Source: Natronosalvus caseinilyticus
GTDB taxonomy: Archaea; Halobacteriota; Halobacteria; Halobacteriales; Natrialbaceae
Direction of reading: 5' to 3'
NCBI RefSeq assembly: GCF_017357105.1
Contig: NZ_CP071596.1
Location: 372,001 to 436,000, forward strand
Length of the DNA stretch: 64,000 nucleotides
Position numbers and translations under genes: made by a program
Notes under the pieces: generated by a model
The model's database searches: none
Told to the model about the DNA's origin: nothing
What the model saw: only the letters and a program-made list of their open reading frames with translations
Shown: positions 21,441 through 39,587 of the stretch, piece after piece
Position numbering within the stretch: the first letter of the stretch is position 1
How the letters are laid out: each line of letters starts with the position of its first letter

Positions 21441-21466
21441 ACGTCGGACTGGTTGGTATGAAGTGG

Positions 21467-22441
21467 ATGGCAGAATCTACCACAGACGTGGATCAATCGC
21501 TTCTCCTCGAACGAATGGAGTTGATCCGCCGATTCGAAACGCGCGTCGGCGAGTTGTTCGCCGACAACGAGATTCCGGGGTTCGTTCACCTCTACATCGG
21601 GTCGGAGGCCGTCGCCGTCGGCGCGTGCTCCGCGCTCGAGGAGTCGGACTACATCACGAGCACCCACCGAGGGCACGGACACGCCCTCGCGAAGGGGCTG
21701 GATCCGAAGAAGATGATGGCCGAGTTGTACGGTCGGACGACCGGGTACTGTAACGGCAAGGGCGGGAGCATGCACATCGCGGACGTCGACGCCGGGATGC
21801 TCGGCGCCAACGGCATCGTCGCGGCCGGGACGCCGATTGGCGGCGGGGCGGCGTTGGCCTCCCAGATCCGCGGCGACGGCGACGTCGCCGTCTCCTTCCT
21901 CGGCGACGGTGCCACCTCCAACGGCCCGTACCACGAGGCGCTCCACCTGGCGGCGCTGTGGGACCTCCCCCAAATCTACGTCGTCGAAAATAACCACTAC
22001 GGCGAGATGACCAGTGTCCACGACCAGCACCCGGTCAGCGACCTCGTCAAGCAGGCCGACGCCTACGACGTTCCCGGCGAGATCGTCAACGGCCAGGACG
22101 TGGAGGAGATGTACGAGGCCTCCCAGGAGGCCGTCGAGCGCGCCCGTGACGGCGACGGGCCGACCGTCATCGAGGCCAAGACCTACCGGTACAAGGGCCA
22201 CTACGAGGGCGACCCACAGTGGTACAAGGAGAACGAGGACCTGCCCGACTGGCGAACGGCCGACCCGGTCGAGACCTACAGCGAGAAACTGATCGACGCG
22301 GGCGTCATCTCCGAGGACGAGTACGAGGAACTGGGCGAATCGATCGAGAAGGAACTGGACGAGGCAGTCGAGTTCGCGAAGGACTCGCCGCTGCCGGAAC
22401 CCGACGCGGCGTACGAGGGACTGTACGCGGAGGAACTCTAA
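21467..22441 (+). CDS. 2-oxo acid dehydrogenase E1 component, alpha subunit (pyruvate/acetoin type)
   Basis: Thiamine-diphosphate-dependent decarboxylation of a 2-oxo acid or cleavage of acetoin, passing the acyl group to lipoyl-E2. The 324-residue protein has the ThDP motif GDGATSNGPYHEALHLAALW running to VVENN (about residues 146-176) and the upstream HRGHGHALAKG and GGSMHIADV segments typical of AcoA/PdhA. The loop after VENN reads YGEMTSVHDQ. The ATG at 21467 is preferred over 21458 from the TATA spacing. The beta subunit starts 2 nt after the stop. No E2 gene is adjacent; the only E2 seen is the OsmC fusion at 31575. Confidence 0.92.
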   Translation: MAESTTDVDQSLLLERMELIRRFETRVGELFADNEIPGFVHLYIGSEAVAVGACSALEESDYITSTHRGHGHALAKGLDPKKMMAELYGRTTGYCNGKGGSMHIADVDAGMLGANGIVAAGTPIGGGAALASQIRGDGDVAVSFLGDGATSNGPYHEALHLAALWDLPQIYVVENNHYGEMTSVHDQHPVSDLVKQADAYDVPGEIVNGQDVEEMYEASQEAVERARDGDGPTVIEAKTYRYKGHYEGDPQWYKENEDLPDWRTADPVETYSEKLIDAGVISEDEYEELGESIEKELDEAVEFAKDSPLPEPDAAYEGLYAEEL

Positions 22442-26387: not shown

Positions 26388-26921
26388 ATGGCGAATTCCG
26401 AGTACCACCGGTATCCCTGGGACGGCCCCGAAGACGACGCGATAGCGGATTCGGACGACGACCTCGACGACGGACCGACCGCGACGATGGTCGCCTCGAA
26501 CGATCGAACGAACTACGTCCGCGTCCAGAACCATGCCCTGTACATCGACGAACCCGAACACCTCTCGCACTCGTTCAAGAAAGGGGGCCGAGGGGAAGCC
26601 CCGAGCGCGCTCGGCTACCTGTTGACGGCCGCGATGGGCTGTCAGGTAAACTCCCTCGAGCAGATGCTCCACAAGGCTCGGCTGACCGAGTACGAGATCG
26701 ACGCCGAGTGCACGGGCTACACGTTCCTCGAGGACGACGTCAAGCGCGTCCAGAAGATCGACCTCCGGATTACCTTGAGCGTTCCCGAGGCCGAGGAGTC
26801 GCGGGCGAACCGCTGTCTCGAGGTCTACGAGAAGGGGTGCGTCGTCGGGGAGACGCTGAAGCGAGGGATCGACCTCAAGGTCGCAAAACGCCTCGTCCTG
26901 GACGACGACGTCGCCGAGTAG
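26388..26921 (+). CDS. OsmC-family protein
   Basis: A 177-residue OsmC/Ohr-fold protein, a thiol peroxidase family that reduces organic hydroperoxides. An acidic N-terminal extension (residues 1-35) precedes the fold. The two active-site cysteines are C85 in LTAAMGCQVN and C151 in YEKGCVVGETL. The Glu that usually lies about ten residues before the first Cys in Ohr (PEELL-type) is not obvious; the segment reads APSALGYLL. It is therefore closer to the general OsmC/YhfA branch than to Ohr. A second OsmC domain occurs in this window fused to an E2 acyltransferase (31575-33290). Confidence 0.9.
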   Translation: MANSEYHRYPWDGPEDDAIADSDDDLDDGPTATMVASNDRTNYVRVQNHALYIDEPEHLSHSFKKGGRGEAPSALGYLLTAAMGCQVNSLEQMLHKARLTEYEIDAECTGYTFLEDDVKRVQKIDLRITLSVPEAEESRANRCLEVYEKGCVVGETLKRGIDLKVAKRLVLDDDVAE

Positions 26922-31574: not shown

Positions 31575-33290
31575 TCAGGACTGCTCGACGGTGATCGTCA
31601 CCGACTGTTCGAGGTCGTCGCTGACGATCCGGTTGACGTAACACGCTCGTTCGGCCGTCTGGACGACGCGCTTGACGTCGGACTCGTCGGCGGGGGAGGT
31701 GACGGTGATATCGACCTCGAGTCGTTCGATGGCGTCGTGGTCCGGTTCCGCGTCGACCTCGACCTCGACCCGATCGATCTCGACGTCGCGTCGCTCCGCG
31801 ATCGAGCCGATCATGAGCGTCAAGCAGGACGACAGACTCCCGAGGAACTGCTCGACCGGCGTCGGCGCCGTGTCGTCGCCGCCGTGATCCTCGGGTTCGT
31901 CCACGTCCCACTCGAAGCGTCGCGACTGGACGGTACCGCGCATGCTCCCGTCCGAGACCGCCCTCGCGCGACGACGCCCCTCGAGTTCGTCCGCGCGCTC
32001 CCGGAACGCGCCGGCTTGGTCCACACTCTCGCTCGAGGACCCGCCCCCGAGCGAGAGGAGGCGCGTCGGGTGCTCGAGTTCGTCCGCCAGGGCCTCGAGG
32101 AACTTCGCCGCGTCGGCCCCATCGACCGCGCGGTGATCGAACGTCAGCGAGAGGCCGAGGTGCGGTTCCACGTCGCCGTCGGCGGTCGGTTGTTGCGTGA
32201 TCGTCCCAACGCCGAGGATAGCGACCTCGGGGACGTTCAAGAGCGGGTCAAACGTCTCGACGCCGAAGTGGCCGAGATTCGTGACCGTGAACGTACCGTC
32301 CGACAGATCCTCCATGGTGAACTCCCGGCTCTGGACGCGGTCGACCAGCTCGCTGCGGGCCGCGTTGATGCCGACTAAGTCGAGTTCATCCACGTTATCG
32401 AGAACCGGCGTCACCAGTCCGTCGTCCACGTCGACGGCCACGCCGACGTTGACGTTGGCCGCGAGTTTGTGGACGCCGCCCTCGTACACGGCGTTGAACT
32501 CGGGATGGTCCCGGAGCGTCCTGGCGACGGCCTTGAGCAGGAAGTCGGTGAGCGAGACCTGTAGATCGCGATCAGCCGAGAGACTGTCCTTGAGAGCGAG
32601 GAGCGACTCGACGGACGCCGACCGGTTGAGCGTCACCTGCGGCGCCTGTTCGGCCGAGGTCGTCATCTGCCTGGCGACGGATCGACGGAGCTGTGATCCC
32701 TGGCGCTCCTCGTAGATTCCCCGACCGGCCGCAGCCGGTGTATCGGGGATGGCCGGTTCAACCGCTTCCCCGAGCGTCCCCGCCTCGACGGCGTCGATCA
32801 CGTCCCGTTCGACGACGGCCCCGTCCGGACCGCTTCCGTCCAGTGTGGCCAGCGCCGACTCGTCGACATCGAGATCGTTGTCGCGCACGTATGACCTGGC
32901 TCGAGGCGACACCTTCCCCTCGACTGCGAGCGCTGCGCCGCCACCCGCGCCCTCCGTCGTCGTAGCTGGTTCCCCGTCTGCCGGTTCTCCGTCGTCGCCC
33001 CCGCCGTCGTCGCCCTCGAGTTCTGCGAGGACGTCGTCGGGCACGCTCGCCCCTGGATCACCCACGTACGCGATCGGTGCACCGGGCTCGACCGCTTCCT
33101 CGAGGTCGACGAATCGCTCGAGCAAGACGCCGCCCTCGCGGGCTTCGACGTCGTTCGCGGTCTTTTCGGATTCGATGACGGCGATGACGTCGCCGGATTC
33201 GAACTCCTCGTCGGCGTCGACGGACCACTCGACGACGACCCCTTCCTCCATCGTCATCCCTAGCTGGGGCATGCGGACTGTGTAACCCAT
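31575..33290 (-). CDS. Dihydrolipoamide acyltransferase (E2) fused to a C-terminal OsmC domain
   Basis: A 571-residue multidomain E2. Residues 1-78 are a lipoyl domain with the lipoylation Lys in ESEKTAND (K43). Residues 79-122 form an acidic Gly/Pro linker. Residues 125-168 are a peripheral-subunit-binding domain (KVSPRARSYVRDNDLDV). Residues 197-411 are the catalytic core ending with HRAVDG (H386, D390). A short linker is followed at about 440-571 by an OsmC fold with TPVEQFLGSLSSC (E480, C489) and AERACYVNRIV (C550), the two-cysteine arrangement of OsmC/Ohr peroxidases. The reading frame is continuous with no stop or shift. E1 is at 21467-23447 and E3 at 37962-39377. The acyl substrate is unknown. 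The fusion predicts lipoyl-driven peroxide reduction in the complex. Confidence 0.9.
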   Translation of the reverse strand: MGYTVRMPQLGMTMEEGVVVEWSVDADEEFESGDVIAVIESEKTANDVEAREGGVLLERFVDLEEAVEPGAPIAYVGDPGASVPDDVLAELEGDDGGGDDGEPADGEPATTTEGAGGGAALAVEGKVSPRARSYVRDNDLDVDESALATLDGSGPDGAVVERDVIDAVEAGTLGEAVEPAIPDTPAAAGRGIYEERQGSQLRRSVARQMTTSAEQAPQVTLNRSASVESLLALKDSLSADRDLQVSLTDFLLKAVARTLRDHPEFNAVYEGGVHKLAANVNVGVAVDVDDGLVTPVLDNVDELDLVGINAARSELVDRVQSREFTMEDLSDGTFTVTNLGHFGVETFDPLLNVPEVAILGVGTITQQPTADGDVEPHLGLSLTFDHRAVDGADAAKFLEALADELEHPTRLLSLGGGSSSESVDQAGAFRERADELEGRRRARAVSDGSMRGTVQSRRFEWDVDEPEDHGGDDTAPTPVEQFLGSLSSCLTLMIGSIAERRDVEIDRVEVEVDAEPDHDAIERLEVDITVTSPADESDVKRVVQTAERACYVNRIVSDDLEQSVTITVEQS

Positions 33291-37961: not shown

Positions 37962-39377
37962 CTACCGGTTGAGCGTGTGGATGGCGTGCCCCAGACCGTT
38001 TTCCGCAGCCTCCATGACCGCCTCCGAGAGCGTCGGGTGGGCGTGAATCGTTCCCCCGAGCTCCTCGAGGGTCGTTCCGGTCTCGATCGCCAGTCCGATC
38101 TCGGCGACCAGTTCCGAGGCCTCGGGACCGACGATCTGCCCGCCGAGGACGCGACTGGTCTCCGCGGCCGCGACGAGTCTGACGAACCCGTCCGACCGCC
38201 CCATCGTCAGTGCCCGGCCGCTAGCCCGGAAGGGGAACGTTCCGACTTGTGGTTCGAACCCGCTCTCTTCGGCCGCCTCTGCCGTCAGCCCGACCGTCCC
38301 GATTTCCGGGTCCGTGAACACCGCGGCGGGAATCGCCCGGTGATCGAGTCGCGAGGGCTCGCCTGCGATGACCTCGGCGGCGACCTGTCCCGCGGCGCTC
38401 GCCTCGTGTGCGAGCAACGGTTCGCCAGCGACGTCCCCGACGGCGAAGACGTGCTCGAGGTCGGTTCGAGCGCGGTCGTCGGTCTCGATGAAACCCCGGT
38501 CGGTCGTCTCCAGGCCGATGGCCTCGAGGTCGACCGTATCGGTGACCGGGGTTCGCCCGACGGCGACCAGCACCCTGTCCGCGGCGTACGTCGAGCCGTC
38601 CCCGTCCTCGGTTTCGGTTCGAACCTCGATCTCGTCCCCCGCGTCGTGCCAGTCGCTGGCCGCCTCGCCGAGGGCGAACGAGATGCCCAGTTCCTTCGCG
38701 CGACGCTTTACCGGCCGCGAGAGATCCGATTCGAAGCCGGGGAGTACGTCGTCCAACATCTCGACGACCTGGACGTCCGTACCCAGCTTCGCGAAGACGG
38801 TCGCGAGTTCCATCCCGATGTAGCCGGCGCCGACGACGACCAGCGAGTCCGGACGTTCCGAGAGCGCGAGCGCGTCTCGAGAACTCAGGATCGGCTCGTC
38901 GTCGAAGGAAAAGCCCGGGATTTCGATTGGTCTTGATCCGGTCGCGACGATCGCGTGGTCGAACGCGAGCTCGTGTTCGCCGCCGTCGGTGATCACGCGA
39001 GCGCGGTGCTCGTCTTCGAACCGGGCGAGACCGTCCACGAGTGAGACCTGGGTGGCCTTACAGAGCTTCTCGACTCCGCCGGTGAGTTGCTCGACGATGC
39101 CGCGCTTCCACGCCTGCGTTCGCTCGAGGTCGACGGTCAGGTCGGCGTCGATGCCCATTTCGGTCGCGTTTGCAGCCTCGTGCGCCGTTCCGCTGGCCTC
39201 GATCAGTGCCTTGGAGGGGATACAGCCGTAATTGAGGCAGGTCCCGCCGTATGCATCTCGCTCGACGAGCGTGACATCGAGGTCGAGTTGACCGGCACGA
39301 ATTGCGGCGACGTAGCCACCCGGGCCGGCGCCGACGATCAGTACGTCTGTCTCTGCAGGGATACCTCTTGAACCCAT
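37962..39377 (-). CDS. lpdA: Dihydrolipoyl dehydrogenase (E3)
   Basis: A 471-residue flavoprotein disulfide reductase. FAD motif GAGPGGYVAA starts near residue 17, the redox disulfide is GGTCLNYGC (C47, C52), the NAD site VVVGAGYIGMELA and the second FAD motif VFAVGDVAGEPLLAHEA. The C-terminal HAHPTLSE carries the His-Glu active-site pair. It reoxidises dihydrolipoyl groups on E2 and would also feed the OsmC domain of the E2 fusion. It is 69 nt from the RdfA start on the same strand but separated from E1 and E2 genes by 5-16 kb. Confidence 0.95.
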   Translation of the reverse strand: MGSRGIPAETDVLIVGAGPGGYVAAIRAGQLDLDVTLVERDAYGGTCLNYGCIPSKALIEASGTAHEAANATEMGIDADLTVDLERTQAWKRGIVEQLTGGVEKLCKATQVSLVDGLARFEDEHRARVITDGGEHELAFDHAIVATGSRPIEIPGFSFDDEPILSSRDALALSERPDSLVVVGAGYIGMELATVFAKLGTDVQVVEMLDDVLPGFESDLSRPVKRRAKELGISFALGEAASDWHDAGDEIEVRTETEDGDGSTYAADRVLVAVGRTPVTDTVDLEAIGLETTDRGFIETDDRARTDLEHVFAVGDVAGEPLLAHEASAAGQVAAEVIAGEPSRLDHRAIPAAVFTDPEIGTVGLTAEAAEESGFEPQVGTFPFRASGRALTMGRSDGFVRLVAAAETSRVLGGQIVGPEASELVAEIGLAIETGTTLEELGGTIHAHPTLSEAVMEAAENGLGHAIHTLNR

Positions 39378-39587
39378 GGCTCGTATTCGGTTTCTACTCT
39401 CGACGAACCGGGGATAAAGATACCTGTTACCACAGTACGTGCCAGTTCCAGAACTCGACGCGGCTGGCTGTTCGCCACCGTCATCGTCGACGCCGGTCGA
39501 ACCCCGAGGCAGCCGACCGATGATCGATTGCGCCGACCACCCGTCAGAAACATTATTTACGTGACCACCAAAGAGGTAAGACACCCA

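Follow-up and report, generated by a model that had tools for sequence, protein, structure and literature searches.

One gene in the window analysed here, a 64,000-nucleotide stretch of the Natronosalvus caseinilyticus genome, encodes an E2 acyltransferase continued in the same frame by an OsmC-fold domain, and this E2-OsmC fusion is real, old and conserved. We propose, at slightly below an even chance, that the gene specifies the core E2 protein of a haloarchaeal dehydrogenase complex of the 2-oxoacid/acetoin type, in which a C-terminal cysteine pair of the YhfA-type OsmC kind would exchange electrons with the lipoyl arm.

Domain architecture of the fusion gene

The single 571-codon frame announced in a preliminary description of this DNA is indeed open and ATG-started; it lies on the minus strand, and reading of 31575-33290 on the plus strand meets several stops. 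Pfam recovered all four of the domains that had been claimed for the protein (lipoyl, subunit-binding, catalytic core and OsmC), each above its cut-off, and the translation places K43, H386, D390, C489 and C550 exactly where they had been assigned.

31575..33290, minus strand: E2-OsmC fusion gene, single open frame of 571 codons with an ATG start, four Pfam domains in one protein
33066..33281, minus strand: lipoyl domain, residues 4-75, Pfam PF00364 (Biotin_lipoyl), 44.4 bits
33162-33164, minus strand: lipoyl lysine K43, within the lipoyl domain
32799..32912, minus strand: peripheral subunit (E3/E1)-binding domain, residues 127-164, PF02817 (E3_binding), 26.1 bits (cut-off 23.7)
32055..32708, minus strand: E2 acyltransferase core, residues 195-412, PF00198 (2-oxoacid_dh), 216 bits, H386/D390 in DHRAVDG
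31974..32051, minus strand: flexible linker from core to OsmC, residues 414-439, pLDDT below 50 over 414-439
31581..31973, minus strand: OsmC-fold domain, YhfA-like by its residues, residues 440-570, PF02566 match at 471-557, 64 bits (cut-off 27.5)
31824-31826, minus strand: C489, the Cp of the OsmC domain
31641-31643, minus strand: C550, the Cr of the OsmC domain

The protein has what identifies an E2, namely a lipoyl domain with its lysine, a subunit-binding domain, a core with the DHRxxDG motif, and E1 and E3 genes nearby. The linker between core and OsmC varies in length across homologues. An AlphaFold model of the full-length fusion (pLDDT 60, pTM 0.36) is too weak for placing an OsmC dimer on the core.

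Conservation and distribution of the fusion

Among 392 Halobacteriales genomes searched, at least 42, from several families, share this continuous frame, which is present in at least 43 copies; both figures are lower bounds counted among the matches listed. Close relatives of the fused OsmC domain were found on 20 named genome contigs, for the most part attached to an E2. Carriers known by name are, among others, Natronococcus, Natronorubrum, Natrinema, Haloterrigena sp. H1, Halobiforma haloterrestris and Natrarchaeobius chitinivorans. We aligned 41 fusions, comprising the window protein and 40 others that are 37-52% identical to it. Both OsmC cysteines are invariant (C489 and C550, 41/41 each) and their spacing ranges from 61 to 65. 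The E2 catalytic histidine (H386) is likewise present in 41/41 and the lipoyl lysine in 40/40, while the D390 position holds D in 38 of the 41 and N in three. In close pairs, ratios taken from computed dN and dS are 0.06-0.27 in the E2 core and 0.08-0.31 in OsmC; purifying selection on OsmC is of about the same strength as on the core.

Among the findings that the preliminary description said would refute its proposal were a missed stop or frameshift at about residues 411-440 and loss of the cysteines in homologues; both were looked for and neither was found, either in the frames of the Halobacteriales genomes or in the aligned fusions. An error of sequencing or assembly, or an accidental read-through from one gene into the next, is ruled out as the origin of the fusion, since at least 42 genomes from several families show the frame; selection acting on both the E2 and OsmC parts also speaks against it, and we give this explanation a vanishingly small probability. 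A shared frame, an invariant cysteine pair and purifying selection together establish that the fusion is real.

Among plasmid records, 659 match the E2; a coverage of 80% or more of the query is reached by one, an Enterococcus gilvus sequence that spans residues 1-469 and ends before the OsmC cysteines. A 197-genome sample of the phylum gave three matches, all in the window's own family; the 20 listed non-matching genomes belong to the same order. A text search confined to the open-access literature returned no description of an E2-OsmC protein, and the novelty of the fusion is therefore provisional. The SPRAR subunit-binding motif occurs twice in 19 of the 41 aligned fused E2s, in which the subunit-binding domain is probably duplicated; the window protein has a single copy.

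The fused OsmC domain resembles YhfA

The C-terminal domain has an OsmC fold with a peroxidatic and a resolving cysteine, as indicated by PF02566 and by Foldseek matches to OsmC and Ohr. It had been described as an Ohr-type peroxidase with E480 as catalytic glutamate, and neither label is supported by the alignment. In Ohr and OsmC the catalytic glutamate lies ten residues before Cp (NPEQLF...C); this position is Val479 in the window protein, and V (39/41) or P (2/41) among the aligned fusions. E480 falls at Cp-9, where the D/E of the fused family shares the register of E. coli YhfA (SPMEMVLMAAGGC), and its assignment as the Ohr glutamate is rejected. The alignment also reveals no conserved arginine corresponding to Ohr Arg19, and the Ohr NCBIfam model TIGR03561 scores 26.8 bits, below its cut-off of 88.85.

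YhfA keeps both cysteines and lacks the arginine and glutamate (PMC8945050), and is excepted from the proven peroxidases of the family (PMC4069020). Alignment with E. coli YhfA shows this combination, two cysteines without the Arg/Glu pair, in the fused domain as well. The best PDB fold match, obtained with an AlphaFold model of the OsmC domain (mean pLDDT 69, with the first 45 residues unreliable), is 1ml8; we take this entry to be E. coli YhfA because it is titled 'hypothetical protein (crp region)' and yhfA adjoins crp. By sequence, the second-best PDB match is 9wo1, a protein of 400 residues that ends in an OsmC domain, a layout that we tentatively identify as that of an OsmC-esterase. The OsmC tree resolves no sister group of the fused clade, be it E. 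coli YhfA or another. Judged by its residues and by the best fold match to its model, the fused domain is YhfA-like, and we regard it as a putative redox domain, not a proven peroxidase. The best NCBIfam family is NF041052, 'OsmC-related (seleno)protein', which 16 of 16 tested family members match and for which the window protein scores below the 95-bit cut-off (78.5 bits for the full protein, 83.4 for the domain alone). OsmC-like selenoproteins with the redox motif UXXT are known (PMC1088965), and together with the NF041052 matches they point to redox chemistry.

A narrower version of our proposal, overlapping with it in probability, holds that a genuine organic hydroperoxidase, Ohr-like and lipoyl-dependent, has been added to an E2. 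The OsmC fold, the invariance of both catalytic cysteines and the documented E2/E3-driven activity of Ohr in bacteria (PMC4486171) would fit such an enzyme; the absent Ohr arginine and glutamate, the low score with the Ohr model and the YhfA-like residues and best fold match would not. The OsmC domain of the OsmC-esterase EstRM, which has both cysteines, showed no peroxidase activity with DTT (PMC5113044). Given the missing Arg/Glu pair and the inactive esterase domain, we have lowered this version to unlikely.

Genomic context

Likely partners of the fused E2 are encoded on both sides of it, at 8 kb (E1 alpha and beta) and 4.7 kb (E3, on the same strand).

21458..22441, plus strand: E1 alpha, likely partner, Pfam E1_dh, 297.9 bits
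22443..23447, plus strand: E1 beta, likely partner, Pfam Transket_pyr and Transketolase_C, NF006667 328.8 bits (cut-off 321)
26388..26921, plus strand: stand-alone OsmC-family gene, PF02566 50.2 bits, outside the fused clade in the tree (O_L004)
37962..39584, minus strand: E3 dihydrolipoyl dehydrogenase, likely partner, TIGR01350 512.9 bits (cut-off 408.8)

The best model for the E1 alpha of the window is of the pyruvate dehydrogenase type and scores below its cut-off. In the tree, long branches connect the stand-alone OsmC gene with E. coli YhfA; the gene is probably just a neighbour of the fusion.

E1 genes lie near 38 of the 41 fused E2s, and a gene of NAD-kinase fold adjoins 31. We read the latter as AcoX because its bacterial homologue shares an operon with the genes for both E1 subunits, alpha and beta, and for the E2 of acetoin dehydrogenase. 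AcoX is present in 75 of the 392 genomes of the order, 34 of which also have the fusion, and none was found in the window's own genome. Since most fused E2s stand beside E1 and an AcoX-like gene, their complex looks acetoin-dehydrogenase-like, though the genome of the window lacks AcoX. This 4.2-Mb genome, of which the window spans 372001-436000, has two E2 cores (the fusion and an unfused one at 794377), two close E3 genes that are 69% identical, one of them in the window, and five E1-alpha genes; with five E1-alpha genes for two E2 cores, an E2 protein may serve more than one E1. At 19 of the 41 loci, for example L073:11412-14353, the fused E2 has as its neighbour a two-subunit 2-oxoacid:ferredoxin oxidoreductase (POR_N/POR and TPP_enzyme_C).

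Split, mini and degenerate forms

Fused, split and mini OsmC domains form one clade in the OsmC tree (86/78, 88% of bootstraps), and on the E2-core tree the fused label requires at least four changes. The single OsmC clade makes one fusion origin with later losses, or domain swapping, likelier than many separate fusions. In the split form, found in four genomes (L151, L208, L209 and L210, the last being the same contig as L080 and counted once), a stand-alone OsmC that is a close relative of the fused domain lies divergently beside E1a-E1b-AcoX-E2, and the E2 has lost its catalytic histidine (DARAIGG). This arrangement is evidence that OsmC and the complex are functionally linked even where they are not fused. 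A different and more distant stand-alone OsmC (L227:12817-13230, minus strand, 66 bits) is found beside E1a-E1b-AcoX and an active unfused E2.

In the mini form the E2 core is gone and a lipoyl-like domain without the lysine is joined directly to an intact OsmC that keeps the cysteine pair.

L088:9392-10411: mini protein
L097:9653-10405: mini protein
L152:9492-10244: mini protein
L153:9540-10274: mini protein
L154:1040-2341: mini protein

Minis arise in about four places of the OsmC tree, their OsmC part is under stronger constraint than the lipoyl part, and no E1 or AcoX was found near them in the stretches read. Their existence suggests that a lipoyl arm in cis is not indispensable to OsmC function.

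Further AcoX-linked E2-like proteins (L211-L225) combine a degenerate catalytic motif with a lipoyl ESEKS motif that is mostly kept; no OsmC was found in the flanks read, about 10 kb to either side of them. Across all the His-less AcoX-linked proteins (L208-L225, L151 and L080) the catalytic motif reads YDTRAI, YDSRAV or DARAIGG, ESEKS is again mostly kept, and the acyltransferase looks dead. Two genes beside E1 alpha, L224:12917-14530 and L225:9332-10948 (both minus strand), encode an alpha/beta hydrolase (Abhydrolase_3) and a lipoyl domain in one protein, in L224 also with an E3-binding domain, an architecture that resembles bacterial AcoC.

These rearrangements bear on two other possible roles of the OsmC domain. 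One of its cysteines might take the acyl group off acyl-lipoyl, as a thioesterase or acyl-editing device that offers a CoA-independent outlet. Pairwise shuffling of the modules involved, as lipoyl with alpha/beta hydrolase in AcoX clusters (L224/L225), alpha/beta hydrolase with OsmC in OsmC-esterases (PMC5113044) and lipoyl-E2 with OsmC, is consistent with such a role, as is the loss of the catalytic histidine in some AcoX-linked E2s (L208-L224). We consider it rather improbable. Against it, the invariant cysteine pair, spaced as in redox OsmC proteins, and selenocysteine in a related OsmC-like family (PMC1088965) point to redox chemistry, and the fused E2s keep an active acyltransferase motif. 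The domain might otherwise be mainly structural or sensory and turn over no substrate itself, either dimerising where the core has its two-fold axes or serving as a redox switch for E2 or E1. OsmC proteins do act as homodimers (PMC8945050), the linker is short and flexible, and assays of the OsmC domain of an OsmC-esterase detected no activity (PMC5113044); but the cysteine pair is invariant, and split and mini versions keep OsmC without an E2 core, hence it would not be only a core-assembly element. This role, too, strikes us as quite unlikely.

Proposed electron transfer between lipoyl arm and OsmC

Exchange of electrons between the lipoyl arm and the OsmC cysteine pair remains our preferred reading. 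The arm would be reduced in the E1/E2 reaction, or else by NADH through E3, and could reach the OsmC domain, of its own E2 chain or of one next to it, over the flexible linker. The reduced arm would then reduce the C489-C550 disulfide, the cysteine pair would in turn reduce a small oxidant (an organic peroxide, a peracid from E1 and oxygen, or another electrophile), and E3 would reset the arm afterwards. As the domain lacks the Ohr Arg/Glu pair, oxidants other than organic hydroperoxides are conceivable. In favour of this scheme are the conservation of the cysteine pair (41/41), lipoyl lysine (40/40) and E2 histidine (41/41), purifying selection on OsmC, the E1/AcoX neighbours, the presence of OsmC beside E1a-E1b-AcoX-E2 even when unfused, and the redox chemistry suggested by NF041052 and the UXXT selenoproteins. 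It also agrees with precedent, for the preliminary description was right that Ohr proteins are reduced by lipoyl groups: the best reductant of Corynebacterium glutamicum Ohr is lipoylated E2 with E3 (Lpd/SucB; PMC4486171), and work on Xylella fastidiosa Ohr with lipoyl-E2/E3 as reductant is cited in PMC8945050. Against it count the missing catalytic Arg/Glu of Ohr/OsmC, the lack of peroxidase activity of the EstRM OsmC domain with DTT despite both cysteines (PMC5113044), and the minis, which keep the OsmC cysteine pair without lipoyl lysine or E2 core, so that an arm in cis is not always needed.

In a more radical variant, the fused and split AcoX-linked complexes would be self-contained lipoyl-linked oxidoreductases, in which E1 loads the arm, OsmC instead of E3/NAD takes the electrons or the acyl group, and acyl transfer to CoA has become dispensable in some members. 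We think this improbable; if true, it would explain why His-less E2s retain a lipoyl lysine, four of them with a split OsmC next door.

The YhfA branch of the OsmC family, which has no assigned function, gains a concrete partner in a covalently attached lipoyl arm, and the reductant and substrate of YhfA-type proteins become a question testable with one purified protein and its E3. Here a redox domain, if such it is, is physically tied to a 2-oxoacid dehydrogenase E2, where in the literature searched only separate proteins exchanged electrons. Provisionally, the new aspect is an E2 with a newly appended domain, OsmC. The splits, dead-looking cores and lysine-less minis further point to repeated remodelling of E2 within one archaeal order.

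Comparison with known systems

In the Mycobacterium tuberculosis DlaT/Lpd/AhpD/AhpC peroxidase, an E2 and E3 of central metabolism feed a peroxidase, a parallel to the scheme above, but through four separate proteins and with AhpC/AhpD in place of OsmC. The Ohr/OsmC lipoyl-dependent peroxidases of C. glutamicum (PMC4486171) and X. fastidiosa (PMC8945050) share with the fusion the OsmC fold, two cysteines and electrons expected from lipoyl-E2/E3; they are separate proteins, whereas the fusion, known from its sequence, joins the parts and lacks the Ohr Arg/Glu. E. coli YhfA (PDB 1ml8) has the same two cysteines, no Arg/Glu and D/E at Cp-9, and is the best fold match, but it stands alone, and the tree resolves no specific sister relationship between it and the fused clade. 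OsmC-esterases such as EstRM (alpha/beta hydrolase-OsmC; PMC5113044) differ in having a serine esterase in place of the E2 and no lipoyl domain. AcoX acetoin dehydrogenase complexes, exemplified by Paraburkholderia (L119), likewise group E1a, E1b, an AcoX-like NAD-kinase-fold gene and E2 in one cluster; their bacterial E2 is not fused to OsmC, and the genome of the window is without AcoX.
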